DNA of 14,293 bases from Acetobacteraceae bacterium (GTDB lineage Bacteria > Pseudomonadota > Alphaproteobacteria > Acetobacterales > Acetobacteraceae): NCBI GenBank assembly GCA_030039695.1, contig JASHVB010000625.1, positions 1-14,293 of the forward strand, read 5' to 3'. Each line of letters begins with the position of its first letter. Within the stretch, counting starts at the first letter, position 1. Below, piece after piece: positions 982 to 13,041 of this stretch. Under the pieces are notes generated by a model, which worked only from the letters and a program-made list of their open reading frames with translations, was not told the origin of the DNA and did no database searches. Position numbers and translations under genes: made by a program.

Positions 982-1824
982 TCAGGGAATCGGCGTGAAG
1001 TGAATCGCCGAGATAGACTGCACGTGATCGTCACGGGTCATCTTGAACTCGGTATTGGGCCCCAGCCACTTGTTCCACATCGCATTGATCTCGCCATCCT
1101 TGTCCATGGCATACAGCGCCTCGTTGACCTTATCGCACAACCGCTGCTCTCCCTTCTTGATACCCACCGCGATCGGCTCAAGCAGCATAGGGTCCTTGAT
1201 CATCTTGAGTGGCACGCCCGACTTTTGCGATTGGCCGACAAGTTTTGTGATCGTCATGGTGTTGGCGACCATCCCGACCACCTTATTTTGCTCCAGTGCC
1301 ATGTAGGCCGACCCGGTATCCTGGAAGGTCACCGGCTGGGAGCCGTTCAGGTTGATCGAGAGCTCGGATGTGGAGCCCTTGGCGGCGCTGACACGCTTGC
1401 CCTTAACGTCGGCGGGGGTCGTTGCCGGATTATTGGCACGAACCGTCAGCATCTCCTTGGCGACATAGTATGGGTCACTGAAATCGATCTCCTTTGCCCG
1501 GCTGGTGGTATAGGCCAGATTGGCGATCGTCACGTCGACGCGGCCCATCTCCACTTCCGGCACGCGCGCCTCGACCGAGAGCGGCGTGATCGAAGCCGAA
1601 ACACCAAAATGCTTGGCCAGCGCGCGGCACATATCGACATCGAAGCCAACCATCTCTCGCGTTTTCGGATCCGGCGCTGCAAAGGGCGGCACATCAGCGA
1701 ACGTGCCGCACTTGAGTTCTTTGTGCTGCATGATGTCGTCCCACTGGTCCGCGCGCGCGGACTGTGCCGCGGCCGCGCTACCTAGGCAGACGAGGGCCAG
1801 GCAGACGGGCGTCATGCGAGACAT
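982..1824 (-). CDS. Periplasmic substrate-binding protein of a polar amino-acid ABC importer (family 3)
   Basis: A 280-residue secreted binding protein. The N-terminus has a basic start, a hydrophobic core at about residues 7-20 and an Ala-x-Ala-type signal-peptidase I site near ARA|DQ (25/26). The mature part carries the SBP_bac_3 signature 'VGFDVDMCRALAKHFG' (59-74) after 'KCGTFADVPPFA', and 'RVDVTIANLAYTTSRAKEIDFSDPYY' in the first lobe, all typical of binding proteins for glutamate, glutamine, cystine or opine-like ligands. A GGGAG Shine-Dalgarno precedes ATG 1824 by about 8 bases. It lies 25 bp downstream of the ATPase gene, as the last component of a complete importer. The ligand cannot be named. 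The neighbouring Pxp and biotin-carboxylase genes suggest 5-oxoproline or another small lactam or amide, by context only. Confidence 0.93.
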   Translation of the reverse strand: MSRMTPVCLALVCLGSAAAAQSARADQWDDIMQHKELKCGTFADVPPFAAPDPKTREMVGFDVDMCRALAKHFGVSASITPLSVEARVPEVEMGRVDVTIANLAYTTSRAKEIDFSDPYYVAKEMLTVRANNPATTPADVKGKRVSAAKGSTSELSINLNGSQPVTFQDTGSAYMALEQNKVVGMVANTMTITKLVGQSQKSGVPLKMIKDPMLLEPIAVGIKKGEQRLCDKVNEALYAMDKDGEINAMWNKWLGPNTEFKMTRDDHVQSISAIHFTPIP

Positions 1825-1849
1825 GGTTCAGACTCCCTAATCGGATGGA

Positions 1850-2587
1850 TCAGTGGCTACGCAGGTCGGAAAGGAATCGCTGTGCGCGCGGATGCTGCGG
1901 GGAACGGAAGAACGTCTCCGGCTCCGCGGCCTCGAGGATGCGGCCGGCGTCCATGAACCAGACCCGGTCTGCGACATCGCGTGCAAAACCCATTTCATGT
2001 GTCACGCACATCATGGTCATGCCGTCATCCGCCAGACCACGCATGACGGTGAGCACTTCTCCCACCATTTCGGGATCGAGTGCGCTTGTCGGCTCGTCGA
2101 ACAGCATCGCTGGCGGCTCCATCGCGAGCGCCCGTGCGATCGCAACCCGTTGCTGTTGCCCGCCGGAAAGTTGCGCCGGAAAGGACCCTGCCTTGTTGGC
2201 GAGCCCAACCCGCCCGAGCAACCGCATGGCCCTGCTGCGCGCTTCTTCGCGCTTCACACCGAGAACCTTCATGGGCGAGAGGGCAATGTTCTCCAGCACC
2301 GACAGGTGCGGAAACAAGTTGAAACTTTGGAATACGAAGCCGATGCGACTGCGCATGCGGTTGAGTGCGCGCCCCTTGTTCGACGCAGCTTGGATATCAG
2401 TGCCGTCGACGGTCAGCGAGCCCGACTGGATTGCCTCGAGCCGGTTGACCGTCCGGATCAACGTCGACTTGCCCGAGCCCGACGGCCCACAGACGACGAC
2501 GACCTCGCCTTTTTTGACCTCTGCGTTGATGTCACACAGAGCGTGGTAATGGCCGTACCATTTGTTGACGCCCGAGAATTCGATCAC
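1850..2587 (-). CDS. ATP-binding subunit of the amino-acid ABC importer
   Basis: A 245-residue ABC ATPase of the GlnQ/HisP/GltL group, of normal family length. Motifs in order: Walker [10 protein letters not shown] (34-42), Q-loop FQSFNLFPH (Gln87), signature LSGGQQQR (140-147), Walker B MLFDEP with Asp164/Glu165 followed by the D-loop SALDPE, and switch His197 in VTHEMGFA. All catalytic residues are intact. It acts as a dimer on the inner face of the membrane and drives the two permeases encoded upstream. Its ATG overlaps the stop of the preceding permease gene by 4 bp (2584-2587), which implies translational coupling. Confidence 0.96.
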
Positions 2588-3354
2588 AGAAGCTCCTCCC
2601 CTGTCGGCAGCGGCAGGTCATCGGTGAGGGTGGCCTTGAGAGCAATCGGCTGGTCTGCTGTCCCGCGGCGCCGCGCGGCAACGCGTTGTTCCAGCAGGTG
2701 AGTGAGCCGGGTCAAGGTAAAGCACACGACGAAGAACGTGACGGCCAGAATGAAGAACACCTGAAAGGGCTTGGTCAGAAGCTGATTGTTGATCTGATTC
2801 GCAGCGAAGGTCAGTTCCTGAACGTTGATGACGTAACCAAGGGTGGTATCTTGAATCGTCGAGATAAATTGGCTCAGCATGCTGGGAAGCATATTGTACA
2901 GCGCCTGCGGCAGGACGATGTAGCGCATCCTGCTATAGTAGCCGTGCCCGAGTGCCCTCGCCGCCTCAGTCTGCCCTTTCGGGAGCGCCTCGATACCGGC
3001 CCGCACCACCTCCGAGAGATAGCATCCTTCGTAGAGCACAAGCGTGCACAGCATGGTGACGAAGCCAGAGACGGGCCGGCCGAGCAGTACCGGCAGCAGA
3101 AAATATGTCCACAGAATGATCATCAGCAGCGGCACGCCGCGGGTGGTATAAACGAGGCCGGTCACTGGCCAGCGCAGCACCGCAACCGGTGAGAGCCGCG
3201 CGAGCGCGAGCAGGATGCTCACCGGGAATGCCAGCAAGATGCCAAGCATCGACAGCATGAGCGTTGCGGCGATGCCGCCCAGCGGGCCGTGCGGGTATTG
3301 GCCGATCAGCAGCAGCAGCCAATTGTCCCGGACGATGTCGATGACGCTCATCAT
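2584..3354 (-). CDS. Amino-acid ABC transporter permease (HisM/GltK type)
   Basis: A 256-residue membrane protein with about five hydrophobic segments. The cytoplasmic coupling loop '[30 protein letters not shown]' lies near the middle and contains the EAA---G motif that contacts the ATPase. The '[16 protein letters not shown]' stretch is the usual early signature of polar amino-acid permeases. There are two tandem ATG codons (3352-3354 and 3349-3351), and either could be used. The C-terminus carries a polar tail of about 35 residues, longer than in many relatives. The gene sits 1 bp after the other permease and overlaps the ATPase gene, so the pair probably forms the heterodimeric channel. 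Confidence 0.94.
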
Positions 3355-3355
3355 G

Positions 3356-4054
3356 TCAGCGCGCCGCCGCCAAACGATAATGCCGGGCCAGTGCTGCGCC
3401 CGCCGCCATCAGCAACAGGGAGACAGTCAGATAGAACGCAGTGCCGGTCGCGTAGATTTCGAAGGTGCGAAAGGTTCGGCTCTCGATTTCCTGAACCACA
3501 TGCGTAATCTCGGTCACGCCGATGACCATGCCGAGGCTGGTGTTTTTGAACAGTGAGACAGTGTGGTTTACCAGGGCAGGGATCGCATTACGGATGGCCT
3601 GCGGCAGAATGATGTAGCGCATCGAGCCGACATAGGAGTGACCCAGTGCACGGGCCGCTTCGGACTGTCCGGGCGCAACGGCCCGCAGCCCCGAGCGAAG
3701 GTCCTCGCTGAAGAATGCCGCCTGACAAAGACCAAGTGCGATGATGGCGAAGATGACTTCGCCGCTATGGTTCGAAAGCCATCCTTGTGTCGCGTCGGGC
3801 AGGACATTCCAGATGCCGAAGTACCAGACCATCAGTTGCACCAGGGTCGGCACATTGCGGTGGTATGAGACATAGGCGGCGACCGCACGCTGTGTGATCG
3901 GCGACGGCGTGAGGCGGATCGTCAGCAGCACCATGGCTAGTGAGATTGCTAGCAGCCAGGCACCTGCGAACACGATGAATGTGGTACGGATGCCGGCGAA
4001 GATCATCGCCGTAAACTCTGGCTTCAGGACCGCCGAAAGATCGAAGGCATTCAT
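3356..4054 (-). CDS. Amino-acid ABC transporter permease (GltJ/HisQ type)
   Basis: A 232-residue permease starting at ATG 4052-4054 (MNAFDLSAVLKPEF). The open frame extends upstream to 4117, but that would add 21 Arg-rich residues and run into the SDR gene, so the inner ATG is preferred. Hydrophobic segments start at about residues 15, 55, 95 and 200. The signature 'YHRNVPTLVQLMVWYFG' is seen, together with the EAA loop '[36 protein letters not shown]'. It pairs with the next permease (1 bp gap) and follows the YdfG-like SDR by 22 bp. Substrate specificity is not readable. Confidence 0.94.
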   Translation of the reverse strand: MNAFDLSAVLKPEFTAMIFAGIRTTFIVFAGAWLLAISLAMVLLTIRLTPSPITQRAVAAYVSYHRNVPTLVQLMVWYFGIWNVLPDATQGWLSNHSGEVIFAIIALGLCQAAFFSEDLRSGLRAVAPGQSEAARALGHSYVGSMRYIILPQAIRNAIPALVNHTVSLFKNTSLGMVIGVTEITHVVQEIESRTFRTFEIYATGTAFYLTVSLLLMAAGAALARHYRLAAAR

Positions 4055-4076
4055 TCGGCAGCCCCTTTTTCTGGCC

Positions 4077-4829
4077 TTAACACGCCGTCTGGTCGGGACG
4101 CATCGTCTGCAGTCCACCGGGAACCTGCAGCGTCGGCATGATCTCGATAAGGCCGACGTTCACGCGTGTGGGGGCGGCAATGGCGAACGCAATGGCATCC
4201 GCAATATCCGAGGCCTCCGGCAACAGGAATCCGTCAAGAAACCGCTCACGCGTCGCGTCGCTGTCGCCATGCACGTGGGCAAAGATCTCCGTCGCAACCC
4301 GGCCTGGACAGATCTCGGTCACGCGAACCAGCTTGCCGTAAAGGTCGATTCGCAACTGGCGGGATAGCATGTGCACAGCGGCCTTGGTGGCGTGATAAGT
4401 GCTGTTGCCACCGAAATGGTAGCTCCCGGCAATAGAGCTAACATTTACCACGTGCCCGCGATTGCGCGCCGCCATGCCGGGCACGATGAGGCGGATCAGG
4501 TGCAGCACGGCACGCAGGTTTACATCGACCAGCAGATCGACGCCGTCCGCATCGGCGTCAAGAATCGAACCGGGCCGGTCCACGCCCGCGCTGTTCACCA
4601 GGATGTCGAACGCTTCGCCCTCGGCCAGGCGGGTGATGCCCTGCAAGTCGCTCACGTCCACTGCGTGGGGAATGCAGCCGGTGCGGGCCGCAAGTGCACG
4701 CAGCTTGTCAGCCCGGCGTGCAAGAGCATGAACCGTGAGCCCTTCACGGCATAACCGCTCGACCACCGCGGCGCCAATCCCTGAGGAGGCACCGGTGACG
4801 AGAGCAGTACGATAGTCGGAAATCGGCAT
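4077..4829 (-). CDS. SDR oxidoreductase resembling YdfG (3-hydroxy acid / L-allo-threonine dehydrogenase group)
   Basis: A 250-residue classical SDR. It has TGASSGIG at 12-19, NSAG at 79-82, and catalytic N104, S132, Y145 and K149 (YHATK). The mid-region 'NRGHVVNVSSIAGSYHFGGNSTYHATKA' and the C-terminal 'VNVGLIEIMPTLQVPGGL' closely follow the pattern of E. coli YdfG, an NADP-dependent dehydrogenase of serine, allo-threonine and 3-hydroxy acids. Arg38-Arg39 after the second beta strand favour NADP(H). It begins 88 bp after the pxpA stop, the largest gap in the chain. AAGG about 8 bases before the ATG may be the ribosome-binding site. It may oxidise a hydroxy-acid or hydroxy-amino-acid intermediate of the pathway; which one is unknown. 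Confidence 0.88.
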   Translation of the reverse strand: MPISDYRTALVTGASSGIGAAVVERLCREGLTVHALARRADKLRALAARTGCIPHAVDVSDLQGITRLAEGEAFDILVNSAGVDRPGSILDADADGVDLLVDVNLRAVLHLIRLIVPGMAARNRGHVVNVSSIAGSYHFGGNSTYHATKAAVHMLSRQLRIDLYGKLVRVTEICPGRVATEIFAHVHGDSDATRERFLDGFLLPEASDIADAIAFAIAAPTRVNVGLIEIMPTLQVPGGLQTMRPDQTAC

Positions 4830-4917
4830 GTTCGGACCTTGATCCCGTAAGGCCTATTGTGGGCGAAATCGCCGCGCGCGGGCCAAGACTATTCGGCTGT
4901 GGGCCGATAAGGTGATC

Positions 4918-5697
4918 CTATGTCGCAGCGCGCTTTTGGTGAGCGAGCGGCACGACTTGCGCCCCGGAACGCTCGACCGCGGCGCGGATCTCGCCGGCGA
5001 GCGCGAGCGCCCCCGGCGTATCGCTGTGCAGCAGGATGGAGGTGGCAGGCATGGCGAGGCGCTTGCCCGAATAGGTTGTGACCGTCCCATCTTGCAAGAG
5101 CTGGGTCACGCGCTCGACGCACGCCGTGGGATCCTTGACGATCGAATTTGGCAGTTTTCGTGGAACCAGCAATCCGTCGTCGTCATAGGCGCGGTCGGCG
5201 AGAAAGCTGGTTGCAGCACGCAGCCCATACCGGCTCGCCGCATCCTCGATCGCGCGTGACGTGGATGACAGGATCATGAGGCCGGGATCAAATTCGGCGA
5301 CAGCCCGCACCAGAATATCCGCCAGTGCTGCGTCCGCGGCTGCCAGATTCCCCAGCGCGCCGTGGAAGCTCATATGGGTCGTCCGGTGCCCGGCCCGGTG
5401 GGCGATTCCGGCGAGCGCGCCGAGCTGGTACACGACGATGCTCGTCAGCTCGGCCGGTTCGATCTGCATCACGCGGCGGCCGAAACCCTGCCGATCGGGG
5501 AATCCGACATGGGCGCCCACATCAACGCCACGATCGAGCGCTTCCCGAACCGTGCGGTCCATGATGGCGGGATCGCCCGCGTGGAAGCCGCAGGCAATGT
5601 TGGCGGACGACAAAAGGCCAAGCAGGGCTTTGTCATCACCCATCTGCCAGGGGCCAAAGCCCTCACCCAGGTCCGCGTTCAGGTCGATCTCAGCCAT
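4918..5697 (-). CDS. pxpA: LamB/YcsF-family protein, 5-oxoprolinase subunit A-like (PxpA)
   Basis: A 259-residue LamB/YcsF protein of normal length. The family hallmarks are present: IDLNADLGEGFG (4-15), SSANIACGFHAGDP (30-43), GVDVGAHVGFPD (57-68), QGFGRR (70-75), and HSDTPGA near the C-terminus. In the known 5-oxoprolinase PxpABC, PxpA acts with PxpBC in ATP-dependent opening of 5-oxoproline to glutamate. One normally invariant block differs: the usual KPHGALYN reads SFHGALGN (110-117), losing Lys, Pro and Tyr. That may mean a changed substrate or partner. The start has a good ribosome-binding site (GGGAGCAGGA) and overlaps the upstream carrier-like gene by 8 bp. It is a certain family member; the exact reaction is less sure. 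Confidence 0.88.
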   Translation of the reverse strand: MAEIDLNADLGEGFGPWQMGDDKALLGLLSSANIACGFHAGDPAIMDRTVREALDRGVDVGAHVGFPDRQGFGRRVMQIEPAELTSIVVYQLGALAGIAHRAGHRTTHMSFHGALGNLAAADAALADILVRAVAEFDPGLMILSSTSRAIEDAASRYGLRAATSFLADRAYDDDGLLVPRKLPNSIVKDPTACVERVTQLLQDGTVTTYSGKRLAMPATSILLHSDTPGALALAGEIRAAVERSGAQVVPLAHQKRAAT

Positions 5698-6106
5698 TCC
5701 TGCTCCCTTTCTCTACAACGCGCATCAACGCAGTCCCGTAGCCGACCGCGGCGCCGTCCTCGGCGAGGATGTCGATCACGATCCCGTCCTTTGGCGCGAC
5801 GACATGGACCAGCAGCGCACCGATCTGCAGCAACCCGACAACATCGCCCGCCCCGACCTGCTGCGAGGGCTGGACGAGAGGAGCCGTTCGCACTGGATGG
5901 GTGCGGCGGAAAATGCCCACCGAAGGCGCCGTGATCTCGAATGACGCAATGCCGGCTGCCACCGATGGAGGCGGCGCCGACCTCTGGCGGGATGCCTCGC
6001 GCCGGAGGCGAATCATGTCCTTCCCAACATCAAGCTCCAGAAGCTCGATGTCCGTTCCCTCCAGCCAGCAGTCGAGTTCGCGGATCTGATCGGCAAGTCC
6101 AGGCAT
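5690..6106 (-). CDS. AccB-like biotin carrier paralogue without the biotinylation lysine
   Basis: 138 residues from ATG 6104-6106, which overlaps the pxpC stop as TGATG; a TTG one codon earlier is also possible. The N-terminal 'LADQIRELDCWLEGTDIELLEL' matches the start of AccB carriers, a Pro-rich linker follows (about 44-52), and residues 57-133 align without gaps to a biotinyl domain ('ITAPSVGIFRR...PLVQPSQQVGAGDVVGLL'). The canonical EAMK is replaced by QIGA (94-97), so the modified lysine position is Ala97 (codon 5816-5818 on the plus strand). It therefore cannot carry biotin at the usual site. A normal carrier with EAMK is encoded at 9113-9559. The gene is in frame, tightly coupled on both sides and keeps the fold's glycines, so it is not an obvious pseudogene. 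A structural or assembly role is inferred. Confidence 0.85.
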   Translation of the reverse strand: MPGLADQIRELDCWLEGTDIELLELDVGKDMIRLRREASRQRSAPPPSVAAGIASFEITAPSVGIFRRTHPVRTAPLVQPSQQVGAGDVVGLLQIGALLVHVVAPKDGIVIDILAEDGAAVGYGTALMRVVEKGSRNG

Positions 6107-7101
6107 CAAGGGCGGCCCCCGGTTGCTTGCGCGCGTCGCAGTCCGATGAGCCGCTCCAACTCCGTAAGCCAGGCACGCATCTCCTGTTCCGCGGCAATGG
6201 CATCGTCCCAGGTGGTTTCAACGAACCTTATGGAACTGCCGATCGGCGCTTGCCCAAGCCGCCACAGGTCGGCTTCGATAACGGTCCCGATCTTGGGGTA
6301 CCCGCCTGAAGGCTGGGCATCGCTGAGTTGTATGATCGGCTGGCCGCCGGATGGGACCTGGATCACGCCCGGTACGATTCCGTGCGACAGCATCTCGACT
6401 GGCTCGGCAAATTCGAGAGCAGTACCCGCCAGACGATAACCGTATCGGTCGCTCTGCGCGGTGATCCTCCACTCGCCCGACCAAAAGATCTCTTTCGAGC
6501 GAGGCGTGAAGCAACAGTATTCGGCAGCGGGAAGCACGCGAATAGCGGGACGCTCGCCCACCTGCAACGGCAAGCCGACGGATGGCGGCACCAGCCCAAA
6601 CCCGGCAGTGATGTTAGCCGGATCCGGAGCCGCGGCCCGCAGATGATCGCCAGTTTGCAGAAAGCGGCCTGCCAGGCCACCAAACGCGCCGCGCAACTGG
6701 GTGCTGCGAGAGCCCAGCACCTCGGGCACGTCGATGCCGCCGGGGAGCGTGAGATAGGCCCGGCTGGCACGCAAAGTGGATCCCTGTGGCAATCCGAGCA
6801 CGAGTTCCTGGCCCGCGTAGGCGGGATAGACTGACCATGGCAGCAGGGCCTGTCCGTCCAACTGCGCCGCGCAGTCAGCACCGGCGATCGCGAAACCACA
6901 GTCCGAGGTGAAGCGAACGGCAAACGGAAACAGCTGCACTTCCACTCCGGCAGCACCCTCGTTATTCCCAAGCAGGAGGTTCGCGGCGGCCAGCGCCAGG
7001 CGGTCCATCGCACCGGACCGGCCAACGCCGTAACGAAGCTTGCCGTAGCGCCCCAGGTCCTGCACCGTCGCAAGCCCGGCAGTGGCGATGATCTCGATCA
7101 C
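6106..7101 (-). CDS. pxpC: PxpC / KipA-like carboxyltransferase-domain (AHS2) protein
   Basis: 331 residues starting at GTG 7099-7101, which overlaps the pxpB stop as GTGA. An open frame continues upstream to 7344 but lies entirely over pxpB, so it is rejected. Family hallmarks: TVQDLGRYG (12-20), GVGRSGAMDRLALAAANLLLGN (25-46), GGIDVPEVLGSRST (121-134), SDRYGYRLAG (217-226), and GVIQVPSGGQPIIQLSDAQPSGGYPKIGTVI (245-275). This AHS2 fold occurs in 5-oxoprolinase subunit C and as one half of the carboxyltransferase domain of urea carboxylase and allophanate-type enzymes. It forms a complex with PxpB. Its position between pxpB and the carrier-like gene, with 4-bp and 1-bp overlaps, supports stoichiometric co-expression. 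Confidence 0.93.
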   Translation of the reverse strand: MIEIIATAGLATVQDLGRYGKLRYGVGRSGAMDRLALAAANLLLGNNEGAAGVEVQLFPFAVRFTSDCGFAIAGADCAAQLDGQALLPWSVYPAYAGQELVLGLPQGSTLRASRAYLTLPGGIDVPEVLGSRSTQLRGAFGGLAGRFLQTGDHLRAAAPDPANITAGFGLVPPSVGLPLQVGERPAIRVLPAAEYCCFTPRSKEIFWSGEWRITAQSDRYGYRLAGTALEFAEPVEMLSHGIVPGVIQVPSGGQPIIQLSDAQPSGGYPKIGTVIEADLWRLGQAPIGSSIRFVETTWDDAIAAEQEMRAWLTELERLIGLRRAQATGGRP

Positions 7102-7751
7102 CGTATCAACTTTTCGGCGTGGAATCTGATCGCATCGCCTGGTTGCAACGCCGTAGGGGGCGATGCTGCCGAATCGAAGAAGCAGAGTGAGGTACAGCCG
7201 ATCGTGTTCCAGCCACTCGGGCCCGGCGACGCTGAAACTCCGGTCTGCGTGCCGCCGATCGAGACGGCGCCTCCGGGAATTCTCAGCACCGGGACTTTGC
7301 GGCGCGGTGTCGCGATCCGTTCGTCCATGCCGCCGAGATAGCAATATCCGGGATGACTGCCGATCGCGTAAACCGGATAAAGCGGGGTTGTATGCCGGTC
7401 GATCAGCTCATCGACGCCGAGGCCGGTATAAGCGAGTACGTCCGCCAGATGCGGTCCGCCATCGCCGCCATAAAGCACCGGCAATTCGACGATGCGCCCC
7501 TGCAGCCGCAAGGGTTCGGCCTCGATCCATGCATCCAGCAGCCTCGCCTTCAATGGCCCAAGATCGCGTGGCGGATTTGTAAACGTGAGCATCAGACTGT
7601 TCACGCCCGGCACGGCCTCCTGGATCTCTGGCCACTCCGCGGCGAGCTGCGCCAGAGCCCAGATGCGCTGCTGCGATTCCAGCGCGGCAGGCGCCGGCGC
7701 CTCGAACAGTAGTGCTGTCGTCCCCAGCAGACTGATCTTGGGGATCATCAT
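7098..7751 (-). CDS. pxpB: PxpB / KipI-like carboxyltransferase-domain (AHS1) protein
   Basis: 217 residues of the AHS1 (KipI/PxpB) family, at usual length. Recognisable blocks are VELPVLYGGDGGPHL (88-102), YLGGMDERIATPRRKVP (138-154) and PGGAVSIGGTQTGVS (159-173). In the family the middle block generally reads FLPGFPYLGGLD; here it is GSHPGYCYLGGMD, a visible divergence near the predicted active site. PxpB pairs with PxpC in 5-oxoprolinase, and the same two folds form the carboxyltransferase of urea carboxylase. The start is a tandem ATG (7749-7751, 7746-7748) overlapping the accC stop as ATGA. The next gene begins inside its stop. Confidence 0.92.
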   Translation of the reverse strand: MMIPKISLLGTTALLFEAPAPAALESQQRIWALAQLAAEWPEIQEAVPGVNSLMLTFTNPPRDLGPLKARLLDAWIEAEPLRLQGRIVELPVLYGGDGGPHLADVLAYTGLGVDELIDRHTTPLYPVYAIGSHPGYCYLGGMDERIATPRRKVPVLRIPGGAVSIGGTQTGVSASPGPSGWNTIGCTSLCFFDSAASPPTALQPGDAIRFHAEKLIR

Positions 7752-9100
7752 GCTTGGCGTCTCCGAGCCAGCCAGCGCTCGAGGTGGTGAATATCGACAC
7801 CGCCCGCATTGAACGCTGGATCTTCAAGAACCGCCTGATGCAGCGGCAGGTTTGTCCGGATGCCCCCAATCGCCATCTCGGACAGCGCCAGGCGCAGGCG
7901 GGTCAGAGCGTCTTCGCGGGTCGCGCCGTGCACGACCAGTTTGGCGATCATGGAATCGTAGAACGGCGGCACGCGGTATCCAGTGCCAGCGTGACTATCC
8001 ACGCGCACACCGAAGCCGCCGGGCATCGTCCATTCGGCAATACGCCCAGGCGACGGCGTGAAACTGTCAGGGTCCTCGGCGTTGATGCGACATTCGAAGG
8101 CGTGACCTCGGCAGACAACAGAGGCCTGATCGAATGACAGGCATTCGCCACGAGCCATGCGGAGCTGATGCTGCACGATATCGATGCCCGTGGTCATCTC
8201 GGTCACTGGGTGCTCGACCTGAATGCGCGTGTTCATTTCGATGAAGTAGAATTGGCCGTCCTCGAACAGGAACTCGAAGGTGCCGGCGCCGCAGTAGCCG
8301 ATGCGGCGGCACGCCTCGGCACAGCGTCCGCCGACACGGGCGACATCCGCGGCGGGAATCCCGGGCACCGGTGCCTCCTCGATGACCTTCTGGTTACGGC
8401 GTTGCATTGAGCAGTCCCGGCTTCCCAGCCATAGCGCCGAGCCGTGACGATCGGCGATCACCTGAATCTCGACATGGCGGGGATGCGACAGGAATTTTTC
8501 GATATACACCTCAGAGTTGCCGAAGGTTCGGCGCGCTTCCTCTTTTGTAAGCGCCAGCATCTCCGGCAAGGCAGCGGGGCGTTCGACAACGCGCATGCCG
8601 CGTCCGCCACCGCCGCCCGCCGCCTTGATAATGATCGGGTAGCCGATCCCGCCGGCGATCCTTTCAATCTGGGACGAATCGTCGGGAAGCGACTCGTCAG
8701 GGCCCGGCACGCATGGCACGCCGGCGCGGCGCATTTCGCGCTTGGCCGCGACCTTGTCGCCCATGGTCCTTATACAGGCGGCGCTGGGGCCGACGAAGAT
8801 GAGTCCGGCGTCTTCGACACGCGCCGCGAATTCGGCATTCTCGGAAAGAAACCCGTAGCCTGGATGGATTGCCTGCGCGCCGCTGACCTTTGCTGCGAAC
8901 AGGATCGCGGCTTGGTTCAGATAACTTTGTGAAGCTGCGGCTGGGCCGATGCAGAGGGCCTGATCCGCTTGCCGAACGTAGGGCGCGCCGGCATCGGCCT
9001 CTGAATGGACGGCAACACTGCGCAAGCCAAGTCCTCGGCACGCACGTTGGATGCGGAGCGCGATCTCGCCGCGATTGGCGATCAGGACTGTGTCGAACAT
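7748..9100 (-). CDS. accC: Biotin carboxylase subunit (AccC type)
   Basis: 450 residues, the normal length of stand-alone biotin carboxylase, which uses ATP and bicarbonate to carboxylate biotin on a carrier protein. Seen in order: [12 protein letters not shown] (5-16), [15 protein letters not shown] (78-92), ATP-site Lys116 and Lys159, the glycine-rich loop AGGGGGRGM (161-169), [17 protein letters not shown] (228-244), and [14 protein letters not shown] (288-301). Glu288, Arg292 and Arg338 fall at the same numbers as in E. coli AccC. All catalytic residues are intact. No AccA or AccD follows; instead the downstream genes encode the urea-carboxylase-like transferase halves PxpB and PxpC. It therefore probably serves a dedicated carboxylase, not fatty-acid synthesis. 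Ribosome-binding site: GAGAAGAG before ATG 9100; 12 bp from accB. Confidence 0.95.
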
Positions 9101-9112
9101 GGTCTGCTCTTC

Positions 9113-9559
9113 TCAGTCTAATTGAAACAGCGATTGCCCGGCCTCGACTTCCTGGCCGGATTGGACCAGCACGGCGGTGATCTTGCCGTCGCGTTCGGCA
9201 CGTACTTCGCTGAACACTTTCATTGCCTCGATTAAGCAAAGAACCTGTCCAGCGGTCACCGATTGCCCAAGGGCTACAAGCGGCGGCGCGCCTCGCGTTT
9301 CCTGCAAATGAACGATCCCGTAGATCGGCGCCACGATCGCGTTGGAGACCACCGCTTCCGGTTCGGAGCGCGGCGGTGACGGCGAAGCAGGGACAGGGGA
9401 CACGCCGCCATGCTGGGCCGGCACAGTGTGAGGCGGCGCTGCTGCAACGGCGGCACGCTTGACAAGCCGGAGCGTCTCGTCGTTGCTGCGGTATTCAAGC
9501 TCCACGAGGTCGGAGGCCGCCAACGCCTCGATCAGTTGCTTGATGACGTCTCGATCCAT
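9113..9559 (-). CDS. accB: Biotin carboxyl carrier protein (AccB type)
   Basis: 148 residues: an N-terminal AccB domain ('IKQLIEALAASDLVELEY', 6-23), an Ala/Pro linker (about 38-68), and a C-terminal biotinyl domain with VLCLIEAMKVFSE (106-118), so Lys114 is the biotin attachment site. The conserved glycines around it (G104, G124) are kept. It is probably the first gene of the operon, 125 bp below the LysR stop. A GAGGG about 11 bases before the ATG may serve as a weak ribosome-binding site. It would shuttle carboxybiotin between the AccC-like subunit and the PxpBC-type transferase. A contribution to general acetyl-CoA carboxylase is possible but less likely given the neighbours. Confidence 0.93.
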   Translation of the reverse strand: MDRDVIKQLIEALAASDLVELEYRSNDETLRLVKRAAVAAAPPHTVPAQHGGVSPVPASPSPPRSEPEAVVSNAIVAPIYGIVHLQETRGAPPLVALGQSVTAGQVLCLIEAMKVFSEVRAERDGKITAVLVQSGQEVEAGQSLFQLD

Positions 9560-9612
9560 GGTTTACGTCGCCCTCGCGGTCGGATGCATCGCCGGCGCGT
9601 CAGCATCCTGCT

Positions 9613-9626
9613 TGTGCTCGAGCACA
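9613..9626. promoter_or_regulatory. Perfect 14-bp palindrome upstream of the accB operon (operator candidate)
   Basis: TGTGCTCGAGCACA reads identically on both strands and lies 54 bp before the accB start, in the 125-bp gap between the LysR stop (9685) and accB. A perfect 7+7 palindrome is expected only about 0.01 times by chance in a gap of this size. No convincing -35/-10 pair was found beside it. Which protein might bind is unknown: it does not show an obvious T-N11-A LysR site and could belong to another dimeric repressor. Confidence 0.4.
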
Positions 9627-9684
9627 TTAGTTGGCGACGGGCAGCCGAGATAAGACGGATTGGCTTTGCCGCGATAGGACGGAC

Positions 9685-10614
9685 TTATGGGGCGCCGGGA
9701 TCGCCGCTCTCGTGCGGCCAAAATGCATCCGTGCGCAGTCCGGCGACCAGATCCAGCAGGATCGCCCTGACGATCTGGGCTGGCTCGGACAGCGGCAGAT
9801 GGTCCGATTGGCAGAGCGTCAATGGAGCCCTGATGACCGGATCCACGATGTGCCGGCACCATGACTGGCGATCACCGACAACTTCACGGGCCATGGACCA
9901 GGGAAGGATGGTGGCGCCCAAACCCTCGGCGATCACCGCTTTCAGGGTCATTGCGGACTCCACTTCGGCGATCAGCCGGAACTCGATCCCGGCGCGCATG
10001 AAGCTCTCGTCCACCAGTTTGCGAACGATATTATACGGTCGCGGCAAGAACAATTCGATGCCATCCATTTCCGCTACGGGAACCGGATCCGCCGTGGCCG
10101 ATGGCCCAATCAGATAAAGCTCTTCATGTAGCAGCGGTGTGAAACTCAAACCGTGGATTGTCCGGTCGCCGTAGAGGATCGCCAGATCCATGCGGCCGCT
10201 CATGATCAGCTCCGACAGGGTGGTTCCGTAATTCTCATTGAGATATGGAATTATCCCCGGGTACTGTGATCGGAGGTTTCGGATCAATGGCAGTCCGAGC
10301 GTCGCCGCCGCTGTTCCCGGAGCAAGCCCGACCGAGACCCGGCCTGACACGTTGCGGCTTCCCGCCGCCATGTCGGTGCGGGCTTGCTCACACTGGCGCA
10401 GGATTGCTTGCGCGTGCCGGTAGAGTGTCTTGCCCGCCTCGGTCGCGGAGACGCCCCGCTTGGTGCGGACCAGCAATTGCTGTTTGACCTCCGCCTCCAG
10501 GGTCGCGATTTGCTGACTGAGGGCAGGCTGAGCGATATGGAGCAGGTCTGCGGCCTGGGTCATGCTGCCGACATCGACGACTTTGGCGAAATACCTCAAC
10601 CGGTTGAAGTTCAT
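9685..10614 (-). CDS. LysR-family transcriptional regulator, Nac-like
   Basis: 309 residues from ATG 10612-10614. The open frame runs on to 10761, but that would overlap the divergent aminotransferase start, and a GGGAGA ribosome-binding site sits 6 bases before the inner ATG. The N-terminal helix-turn-helix is 'RLRYFAKVVDVGSMTQAADLLHIAQPALSQQIATLE' (5-40), followed by 'LLVRTKRGVSATEAGKTLY' and the linker helix. Both follow the pattern of the enterobacterial nitrogen assimilation control protein Nac very closely. An effector-binding domain of usual length follows ('VSVGLAPGTAA', 'LSELIMSGRMDLAILYG'). It is placed to control both the divergent aminotransferase-idnD unit and the accB-pxp operon. 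Nac itself is known to respond to nitrogen limitation through its own expression; whether this homologue senses a ligand is not visible. Confidence 0.92.
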   Translation of the reverse strand: MNFNRLRYFAKVVDVGSMTQAADLLHIAQPALSQQIATLEAEVKQQLLVRTKRGVSATEAGKTLYRHAQAILRQCEQARTDMAAGSRNVSGRVSVGLAPGTAAATLGLPLIRNLRSQYPGIIPYLNENYGTTLSELIMSGRMDLAILYGDRTIHGLSFTPLLHEELYLIGPSATADPVPVAEMDGIELFLPRPYNIVRKLVDESFMRAGIEFRLIAEVESAMTLKAVIAEGLGATILPWSMAREVVGDRQSWCRHIVDPVIRAPLTLCQSDHLPLSEPAQIVRAILLDLVAGLRTDAFWPHESGDPGAP

Positions 10615-10734: not shown

Positions 10735-11967
10735 ATGAATGACGCTCCTAACGCTCTGCACATCCCGTCCCGCATCGCCAGCCGAGTTGCGCGCATCAAG
10801 CCATCTCCGAGCACAGGCGCGGCCGATCGCGCCAACATGCTTCGCCAGGCCGGTCGGTCAATCGTGAACCTGGTTGTCGGCGAGCCCGATTTCGACACCC
10901 CCGCGCACATCCGGGCCGCGGCGGCGGCGGCGATGGAGCAAGGGGCAACCCGCTATACGCTGATGGCCGGGACCGTGGAGCTGCGGCAAGCGATTGCCGC
11001 CAAACTCGACCGCGAGAACGGGCTGAAATACGACATCGACGAGATCATCGCGACCAATGGCGCCAAGAGCGCGATCTACACGGCGCTGGCCGTCACGCTG
11101 GAGCCGCGCGACGAAGTGGTCATCCCGGCACCGTACTGGGTGTCCTATCCTGACATGGTCCTTGCCTGCGACGGCGTACCCGTCGCGGTGCGGTGCCCAG
11201 AGGGGAATGGGTTCAAGTTGACGCCGGCGCAGCTCGCGAATGCGGTCACCTCACGCACACGTTGGCTACTGATTAATTCGCCAAGCAACCCGACCGGAGC
11301 CAGCTATACAAAAGCCGAGTACCAAGCATTGGGCGAGGTCTTGCTTGCGTATCCGCATGTGCTCGTCATGACCGATGACATCTATGAGCACATCCGCTTC
11401 GATGGAGCTCGCACGCCCCATCTGCTTGAGGCGGTGCCCGAACTTCGAAACCGCGTGCTGGCCGTGAATGGCGTTTCAAAGACCTATGCGATGACGGGTT
11501 GGCGCATCGGATACGCGGCGGGTCCGGCGGACATCGTCGAAGCCATGAACACGATGCTGTCGCAGTCCAGCGGCAACTGCTGCTCCATAAGCCAAGCGGC
11601 GGCGACCGAGGCGTTGAATGGCGACCAAAGCTTTGTCGCTGAGAGTGTGGTCGTCTATCGCAAGCGCCGGGACGCCGTTTTGGCTCGGATCAACGCCATT
11701 CCGGGGCTGAGCTGCACGCCGCCGGTCGGCGCCTTCTACCTCTACATCAACTGCGCCGGGCTGATTGGCAAGATCGCACCTGACGGAAGCAAGCTGAACG
11801 ACGATGGCGATGTGGTCATGTTCCTGCTCGAGCAAGCGGGCGTGGCTGTTGTCCCCGGCGCGGCGTATGGCCTCTCACCCTATTTCCGACTCTCGATCGC
11901 AGCTTCTCTGGACGTCCTTGAGGAGGGCTGTGCGCGCATTGCCATGGCTGCAAAAAGCCTTCACTGA
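10735..11967 (+). CDS. Class I/II PLP-dependent aminotransferase (aspartate aminotransferase-like)
   Basis: 410 residues, fold type I, the length of bacterial Igamma-type aspartate/prephenate aminotransferases. Landmarks: VVGEPDFDTP (47-56), YTLMAGTVELRQAIAAK (74-90), PAPYWVSYPDM (131-141), SPSNPTG with Asn185, Asp215 in TDDIYEH, the PLP-binding Lys249 in NGVSKTYAMTGWRIGY, and the carboxylate-binding Arg385 in YFRLSIA. These are the residues that bind PLP and the alpha-carboxylate of the amino-acid substrate. It probably moves an amino group between an amino acid and 2-oxoglutarate or oxaloacetate in the cytoplasm. The ribosome-binding site before ATG 10735 is weak (GGGG). It is divergent from the regulator and 39 bp upstream of the idnD-like gene, so probably co-transcribed with it. 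The amino donor could be glutamate made by the Pxp proteins (inference). Confidence 0.92.
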   Translation: MNDAPNALHIPSRIASRVARIKPSPSTGAADRANMLRQAGRSIVNLVVGEPDFDTPAHIRAAAAAAMEQGATRYTLMAGTVELRQAIAAKLDRENGLKYDIDEIIATNGAKSAIYTALAVTLEPRDEVVIPAPYWVSYPDMVLACDGVPVAVRCPEGNGFKLTPAQLANAVTSRTRWLLINSPSNPTGASYTKAEYQALGEVLLAYPHVLVMTDDIYEHIRFDGARTPHLLEAVPELRNRVLAVNGVSKTYAMTGWRIGYAAGPADIVEAMNTMLSQSSGNCCSISQAAATEALNGDQSFVAESVVVYRKRRDAVLARINAIPGLSCTPPVGAFYLYINCAGLIGKIAPDGSKLNDDGDVVMFLLEQAGVAVVPGAAYGLSPYFRLSIAASLDVLEEGCARIAMAAKSLH

Positions 11968-12006
11968 GCAGGCCCTGGCGGCGACGGATTAATGGAAGAG
12001 CATGCG

Positions 12007-13041
12007 ATGAAAGCGATAGTCATCCACGCCCCGCACGACATCCGGCTCGATGATTGGCCCACCGAGGCGCCCGGTCCGGGGCAAGTCAGCGTCCGGATTG
12101 CTGCCGGAGGAATCTGCGGCTCGGACCTGCACTATTACCATCATGGCGGGTTCGGTACGGTACGTATCCAGCATCCGATGGTCCTGGGCCATGAGATTGC
12201 CGGCACCGTTGCCGATGTTGGGCCGGGCGTGACACGGGTTGCTGTCGGCGACAAAGTTGCGATCAATCCTTCATCGCCGTGCAGCCACTGTCGCTATTGT
12301 CTCGAGGGCATGCCGAACCAGTGCCTCGATATGCGCTTCTACGGCAGCGCCATGCGAATGCCTCATGTTCATGGCGCCTTTCGCGAGCAGCTGACGTGCG
12401 ACGAGGACCAGGTTCAGGCGTTGCCACCCGGGACAGACATGACGGAGGCCGCATTCGCCGAGCCGCTCTCGGTATGCTTACACGCAGCACGCCAGGCGGG
12501 CACGGTGATCGGAAAGCGGGTCCTGGTATCCGGCTGCGGTCCGATTGGGGCGCTCTGCATGCTTGTCGCGCGGCACGGCGGAGCGCGCGAGGTCGTCGTG
12601 ACCGACTTGCTCGACGAACCACTGGCAATCGCGCGCGCCCTGGGCGCCGATCGCACCATCAATATGGCAGAGCATCCCGACGGTCTCGCCGCGTATGGCA
12701 GAGACAAGGGGACGTTCGACGTGGTGCTGGAGGCTTCGGGGGCTGGGGCCGCGATCGCCGCGGCGGCTGCCGCGGCCAGGCCGGGTGCGGTCATGGTCCA
12801 ACTTGGCCTGGGTGGCGCCGAGACCGGGTTGCCGCTGAACACGTTCGTCGCGAAGGAACTCAACCTTCGTGGTACGTTCCGCTTCCATGAGGAATTTGCC
12901 TGGGCGGTGGAGGCCATTGTGCGGCGACAGATCGATGTGCGCCCGCTGCTCAGCGCAGTTCTGCCGTTAGCGGAAGTTCGGCGCGCGTTTGACCTGGCCT
13001 CCAACCGCAGACAATCAATGAAGGTGCAAGTGGCATTCTGA
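12007..13041 (+). CDS. idnD: Zinc-dependent L-idonate 5-dehydrogenase-like (sorbitol dehydrogenase family)
   Basis: 344 residues from ATG 12007. An earlier in-frame ATG (11992) is less likely because GGAAGAG at 11994-12000 is a strong ribosome-binding site for the later one. Catalytic zinc ligands are Cys37, His62 and Glu63, with Glu152 also placed. Structural zinc is held by Cys92, Cys95, Cys98 and Cys106. The Rossmann motif GCGPIG is at 176-181, with Asp200 after the second strand pointing to NAD+. Blocks such as GGICGSDLHYYHHGGFGTVR, CLEGMPNQCLDMRFYGSAMR and AFAEPLSVCLHA are characteristic of L-idonate 5-dehydrogenase (L-idonate to 5-keto-D-gluconate). With the IdnO-like SDR at 169-945 it would complete the idonate-gluconate redox pair, but the two genes lie in different transcription units. 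Another polyol acid is possible as substrate. Confidence 0.88.
   Translation: MKAIVIHAPHDIRLDDWPTEAPGPGQVSVRIAAGGICGSDLHYYHHGGFGTVRIQHPMVLGHEIAGTVADVGPGVTRVAVGDKVAINPSSPCSHCRYCLEGMPNQCLDMRFYGSAMRMPHVHGAFREQLTCDEDQVQALPPGTDMTEAAFAEPLSVCLHAARQAGTVIGKRVLVSGCGPIGALCMLVARHGGAREVVVTDLLDEPLAIARALGADRTINMAEHPDGLAAYGRDKGTFDVVLEASGAGAAIAAAAAAARPGAVMVQLGLGGAETGLPLNTFVAKELNLRGTFRFHEEFAWAVEAIVRRQIDVRPLLSAVLPLAEVRRAFDLASNRRQSMKVQVAF

Follow-up and report, generated by a model that had tools for sequence, protein, structure and literature searches.

A biotin-carrier paralogue without the acceptor lysine recurs beside two-domain carriers in PxpABC-type gene clusters

The lysine-less carrier and its gene cluster

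Contig JASHVB010000625.1 of an Acetobacteraceae bacterium was analysed over a window of 14,293 nucleotides, which is the whole stretch of DNA considered here. Its minus strand encodes a two-domain biotin-carrier paralogue without the biotin-accepting lysine (K−), in an open reading frame (ORF) of 138 amino acids when read from ATG (5690–6106) or 139 amino acids when read from TTG (5690–6109). An AccB-type biotin carrier with the EAMK motif (K+), presumed to be the partner of K−, is encoded on the same strand at 9113–9559. The biotinyl/lipoyl barrel was identified in K− with the profile PF00364 Biotin_lipoyl (32.8 bits against a cut-off of 22.1). Residues QIGA (94–97) of K− paired without gaps with EAMK of the Escherichia coli biotin carboxyl carrier protein (BCCP) and of the window's own AccB; hence, the acceptor position is occupied by Ala97, and K− lacks the acceptor lysine of an AccB. 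The profiles of K− and K+ aligned over nearly their full length with a probability of 99.7% (hhalign), and the N-terminal domain of AccB was found to be present in K−, both in this profile match and in the AlphaFold2 model. The model consists of a helix (4–16), a hairpin (strands 22–27 and 30–35), a linker of low confidence (39–51) and the barrel (55–132), and the ten best rows of a fold comparison with it were all biotin carriers. The score of K− against TIGR00531 was 38.3 bits, below the curated cut-off of 115.2 bits, as was that of the window's K+ (91.1 bits).

The ORF of K− overlaps both of its neighbours. The pxpC stop codon and the ATG of K− are combined in TGATG at 6108–6104, and the stop codon of K− lies inside pxpA, with an overlap of 8 nt. 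A preliminary description made from the DNA letters had claimed an intact frame at 5690–6106 that keeps the N-terminal AccB domain and overlaps both neighbours, alanine in place of the acceptor lysine, and a carrier with EAMK in the same cluster; all of this was confirmed, and its residue numbers are right for the 138-amino-acid form.

The minus-strand gene order is K+, AccC, PxpB, PxpC, K−, PxpA, a short-chain dehydrogenase/reductase (SDR) and an amino-acid-type ABC transporter. AccC, the biotin carboxylase subunit (7748–9100), scored 682 bits with NF006367 (cut-off 597), and the PxpB-type carboxyltransferase-domain subunit (7098–7751) scored 185.8 bits with TIGR00370 (cut-off 145.55). The PxpC-type carboxyltransferase-domain subunit was placed at 6106–7098; the listed ORF extends to 7344, and a start near 7098 is suggested by homologues. 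PxpA (LamB/YcsF) lies at 4918–5697. The SDR oxidoreductase (4077–4829) and the transporter (982–4060; a substrate-binding protein, an ATPase and two permeases, named from annotated relatives) are members of the conserved cluster. A LysR-family regulator of the cluster is encoded upstream (9685–10614, minus strand), and beyond it lies a further conserved member, a pyridoxal phosphate-dependent aminotransferase (10735–11967, plus strand). No RNA element was detected in the window at Rfam gathering thresholds. In a DNA-level comparison, the plasmid record ranked first was that of Variovorax paradoxus, with 31% coverage at 73.5%. AccC, the K+ carrier and the CT_A_B and CT_C_D domains of PxpC and PxpB suggest that the cluster encodes a biotin-dependent carboxylase. 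A link of PxpB/PxpC-type domains to the transferase domain of urea carboxylase is backed by a passage in PMC3199775. The cluster looks catabolic.

Missing lysine and pairing of K− with K+

A first search returned 77 proteins, including the window's own, in which the acceptor column held 67 Ala, 5 Pro, 3 Ser, 1 Val, 1 Glu and no Lys. A profile search then gave 290 matching proteins, and the 120 ranked highest were examined; the 176 rows aligned after it, including the window (155 protein records plus locus sequences, weighted to near relatives), held 97 Ala, 55 Pro, 24 other residues and no Lys at this position. Homologues in the same place that carry the EAMK lysine, which the preliminary description had named as evidence against its reading, were thus absent from these rows. 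Among 40 K− proteins read at their loci, the position was occupied by Pro in 24 and Ala in 4, with nine other residues also represented, and Gly replaced the Met preceding it in 37 of the 40. Loss of the acceptor lysine is a conserved trait of the K− family and not a matter of chance. Where source names were given, members were mostly called biotin carboxyl carrier, biotin/lipoyl-containing protein or hypothetical protein. A lysine moved along the hairpin was considered as a substitute, as 29 of the 176 rows have Lys at the Glu position of EAMK (none in the acceptor column), and was rejected as an acceptor because that position lies in the strand, before the modelled turn at 96–97. Extended open frames at L085, L068 and other loci looked like fusions of AccC or PxpC to K−; these were also rejected, since the part ahead of K− comes from translating a neighbouring gene in the wrong frame.

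A two-domain K+ accompanied a K−-type protein in 40 of 41 loci, and both genes were on one strand in all 40. Both were carried by 19 of 20 fetched loci, which included Variovorax, Bradyrhizobium, Agrobacterium/Allorhizobium, Burkholderia, Mesorhizobium, Microvirga, Bosea, Shinella, Rhizobium, Ensifer, Terrarubrum and Rhodococcus. The exception was a Rhodococcus opacus plasmid (L060), which encodes at 7884–8297 a lone carrier-like protein with KVLT at the hairpin and no such cluster nearby. Each of 20 further regions from the family or order of the centre genome, G405, contained one K+ and one K−. These 19 loci and 20 regions, together with the window, make up the 40 pairs, with L126, L134 and L135 standing outside them. 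No stop codon was found inside the 40 K− frames, and the linker between the two domains was shorter in K− than in its own K+ in all 40 pairs.

In the fetched 12–18 kb, and at the E-values used, accC was not found in 5 of the 40 pair loci (L019, L112, L113, L117 and L118), pxpB and pxpC were not found in two (L055 and L101), and pxpA was not found in one (L055). It was observed that K+ and K− are direct neighbours in all five loci without a detected accC. In Agrobacterium vitis VAR03-1 (L019, 8469–9393), K+ adjoins K− with accC missing between them and the close relatives L057 and L058 have accC, which looks like a loss of accC. The other four have pxpA, K+, K− clusters with divergent pxpB/pxpC and no accC within the fetched 13–17 kb, and may borrow the housekeeping AccC. 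In Neorhizobium galegae VafX2 (L134, 5000–11050), several cluster genes including K+ and K− have broken frames, probably owing to sequencing errors.

As most of the 40 loci were reached through K− itself, clusters reached by another query were considered separately, and K− was present in 12 of 12 (11 of 11 without G405, which had been picked for its K−). It was present in all six genomes whose AccC is 62–66% identical to that of the window (five of five without G405), the part read of a match list that had four further entries at 56–58% identity. It was also found in all three clusters reached via a match to their K+ (L116–L118) and in all three two-domain-carrier clusters reached via PxpC (L126, L134 and L135). 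Four pxpC regions with one short single-domain carrier (EVMK), from Rhizobium leguminosarum Ta6, Azospirillum, Pararhizobium and Agrobacterium RAC06, contained no K−, nor did three regions from Vibrio, Paenibacillus and Streptomyces in which two profiles detected no carrier. These ten regions are a small set, chosen by the authors from the best 60 of 521 PxpC records. Since K− was found in all three long-carrier regions and in none of the four one-domain or three carrier-less ones, K− is associated with the long two-domain carrier. The single-domain carriers of other PxpA-AccC-PxpBC clusters (L127–L130) have EVMK instead of EAMK and no K− partner.

Other genes recur around these clusters. The window's cluster is bordered by a second SDR and a zinc alcohol dehydrogenase (169–945 and 11992–13041), and relatives of the zinc alcohol dehydrogenase (55–61%) were also located near the clusters of L054, L064, L116 and L119. 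The clusters of L017 (2428–4328), L054, L019, L020 and L055 repeatedly contain or adjoin genes for RraA-family/4-carboxy-4-hydroxy-2-oxoadipate aldolases and for an aspartate-type aminotransferase. Speculatively, this recurrence could fit the breakdown of a substituted glutamate lactam.

Spread, descent and selection

The K− family is patchy and not general, as three genome surveys show. Among 398 Pseudomonadota genomes, only 3 matched the family profile at an E-value of 1e-18 or better, a count that takes in the genome at the centre of that survey. In the order of the Variovorax genome G001, only G001 itself, the centre of the survey, scored well apart from housekeeping AccB among 300 genomes (139 versus at most 65 bits). 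The family of G405 gave matches at 1e-18 in 50 of 199 genomes; loci were obtained for 30 of these and part of them widened, and reading them showed that at least 20 of the 199 genomes have K− and that others have housekeeping carriers.

In an unrooted tree built from 40 K− and 40 K+ sequences with 14 housekeeping AccB, all K− lay on one side of a single branch (support 100/100; 100% of bootstrap trees). The K− of L105, L106 and L119, which have wrong-frame extensions, were shortened to their C-terminal 140 residues, and L060 did not enter the tree. The K− proteins stayed together when the nine motif columns were removed (SH-aLRT 99). K− has a single ancestry across alpha- and betaproteobacteria. 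The K+ proteins were weakly split from housekeeping AccB (76/66), with two changes without the motif columns.

Pairwise ratios of nonsynonymous to synonymous substitution (dN/dS) in nine pairs ranged from 0.10 to 0.51 for K− and from 0.17 to 0.30 for K+; some of the dS values are above 1 and rough. Purifying selection acts on K− in most of the nine pairs, and K− evolves somewhat faster than K+ (mean p-distance of 0.70 versus 0.61). Relaxed selection with dN/dS near 1 and frequent frameshifts, the other outcome that the preliminary description had set against its reading, did not appear in these pairs and frames, the broken frames of L134 falling outside the count.

Possible role of K− and comparison with known systems

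K− is probably a dedicated, non-biotinylated structural partner of K+ and the biotin carboxylase, acting like the plant BADC proteins. BADC are BCCP-like proteins without the biotin motif, which passages in PMC11926652, PMC7712654 and PMC12873504 present either as glue for biotin carboxylase and BCCP or as a competitor of BCCP. A structural role is favored because an N-terminal domain and a thumb are retained in K− and are also present in the carriers with which it is paired; as K− and a normal carrier recur together, K− probably helps to hold the enzyme together. In the proposed arrangement, the carboxylase would be made of AccC, the EAMK carrier K+ and the PxpB/PxpC carboxyltransferase-domain pair, with PxpA downstream and K− as a structural subunit. 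Through its N-terminal domain, its barrel thumb or both, K− would enter a mixed assembly with K+ and the biotin carboxylase and stay in place as K+ swings biotin between AccC and PxpBC, an assembly "glue" of the kind proposed for BADC in the plastid acetyl-CoA carboxylase of plants. The preliminary description had suggested a structural, scaffold or regulatory subunit that imitates the carrier where it would meet PxpBC or AccC. The retention of a lysine-less paralogue under selection was borne out, and a structural or scaffold role fits; the likely first partner, going by gene-neighbour evidence, is K+.

Several observations weigh against this role. The faster evolution of K−, the very long branches of several of its lineages and the pair with dN/dS of 0.51 suggest that an interface of K− is not tightly kept. 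The single origin of K− is better founded than a joint descent of K+ and K−, because K+ does not separate firmly from housekeeping AccB as a group of its own. The mirror correlation and the linker comparison were computed without correction for shared ancestry. The loci not found via K− come from the same bacterial groups as the others. The arrangement of the genes would also suit a different partner from K+, as K− in the window overlaps pxpC and pxpA and not accB, and the Rhodococcus plasmid has a K−-like protein without such a cluster.

A possible, though not favored, function is insulation by obligate pairing, in which K− would pair only with its own K+ to form a private complex, or draw on a shared AccC when its own cluster encodes none. 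In accessory carboxylases, a two-domain AccB-type carrier could become mixed with AccB and AccC of the housekeeping enzyme; one-domain carriers, which have no assembly domain, would need no K−. Insulation would explain why K− occurs with two-domain carriers only in the regions read, and why it persists directly beside K+ without a local accC.

The same dispute over BADC in plants, i.e., inhibition by competition for biotin carboxylase versus assembly glue, raises the alternative that K− is an inhibitory mimic which competes with K+ for the biotin carboxylase (or PxpBC) and damps enzyme activity depending on conditions. The whole carrier architecture kept in K− is compatible with such a mimic. 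It is nevertheless unlikely: the location of K− on the strand of K+ in all 40 pairs and its overlap with both neighbours in the window indicate that K− and K+ are likely made together, a scan of 4800–9800 for sigma-70 type sites, with 0.6 expected by chance, returned no promoter-like site, and a simple competitor has no need of a shorter linker. A scaffold role, in which K− would link PxpBC either with PxpA or with the AccC/K+ part for handover of the activated substrate, is likewise unlikely. The order pxpB-pxpC-K−-pxpA in the window, with its overlaps, and in several syntenic relatives (e.g., L001, L017 and L054) is what such a scaffold would predict. In Bosea (L055), however, K− lies beside accB-accC with no pxpA, pxpB or pxpC found in 16.4 kb, L101 has K− without pxpB/C, other loci have K− between accC and pxpB, and the clusters with one-domain carriers have PxpABC and no K−.

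Conversion of the barrel into a ligand-binding or sensing domain is very unlikely. A His-Pro in the thumb (173 of 176 rows) and G[YF]G in the last hairpin (172 of 176 rows) are well kept in the aligned set, but His is found in only 32 of the 40 locus proteins, several divergent K− lack His-Pro, and Tyr/Phe at position 123 is shared by 14 of 14 housekeeping AccB; the fold comparison, which returned biotin carriers in all ten best rows, is still compatible with ligand binding. That K− is a decaying duplicate without function is scarcely credible, for the fast evolution, the freely varied acceptor residue and the disrupted frames of a single record (L134, whose neighbouring genes are likewise disrupted) are set against frames without internal stops, purifying selection in most pairs, one ancestry across two proteobacterial classes and the recovery of K− in every cluster reached by another query.

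Compared with known systems, K− shares with AccB/BCCP of bacterial acetyl-CoA carboxylase (TIGR00531; PDB 4hr7, 1bdo) the N-terminal helix and hairpin, the linker and the biotinyl barrel with its thumb; it differs in the missing acceptor lysine, the Gly for the preceding Met, the shorter linker and the score below the TIGR00531 cut-off. The rest of the window cluster consists of homologues of PxpA, PxpB and PxpC, as in PxpABC 5-oxoprolinase and urea-carboxylase-type carboxyltransferases, whereas the K+/K− pair sets it apart from the PxpC regions with one short carrier or none detected. The small subunits of bacterial acyl-CoA carboxylases are, to our knowledge, unrelated to carriers. Compared by description only, they resemble K− as non-catalytic assembly subunits of a biotin-dependent carboxylase, and are called "glue" in a passage of PMC11926652. 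BADC, also compared by description only, resemble K− as BCCP homologues without the biotinylation motif that are tied to a biotin carboxylase system, going by the passages cited above, and are described in part of PMC11926652 as unique to the plant enzyme. K− differs in being bacterial and in belonging to a catabolic-looking cluster with PxpABC-type subunits instead of the plant plastid acetyl-CoA carboxylase; the lysine was likely lost separately in the two. Among the best-ranked matches in the open-licence literature, no description of a bacterial lysine-less BCCP partner was recognised, and the family is often named a biotin carrier in source records although it is without the usual biotin site. 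The small bacterial K+/K− cluster and its one-domain-carrier relatives would allow assembly and inhibition to be told apart in culturable bacteria and with purified proteins. On present evidence, K− appears to be the counterpart, in soil- and plant-associated bacteria, of a kind of paralogue described from plants, the likeness being one of working.
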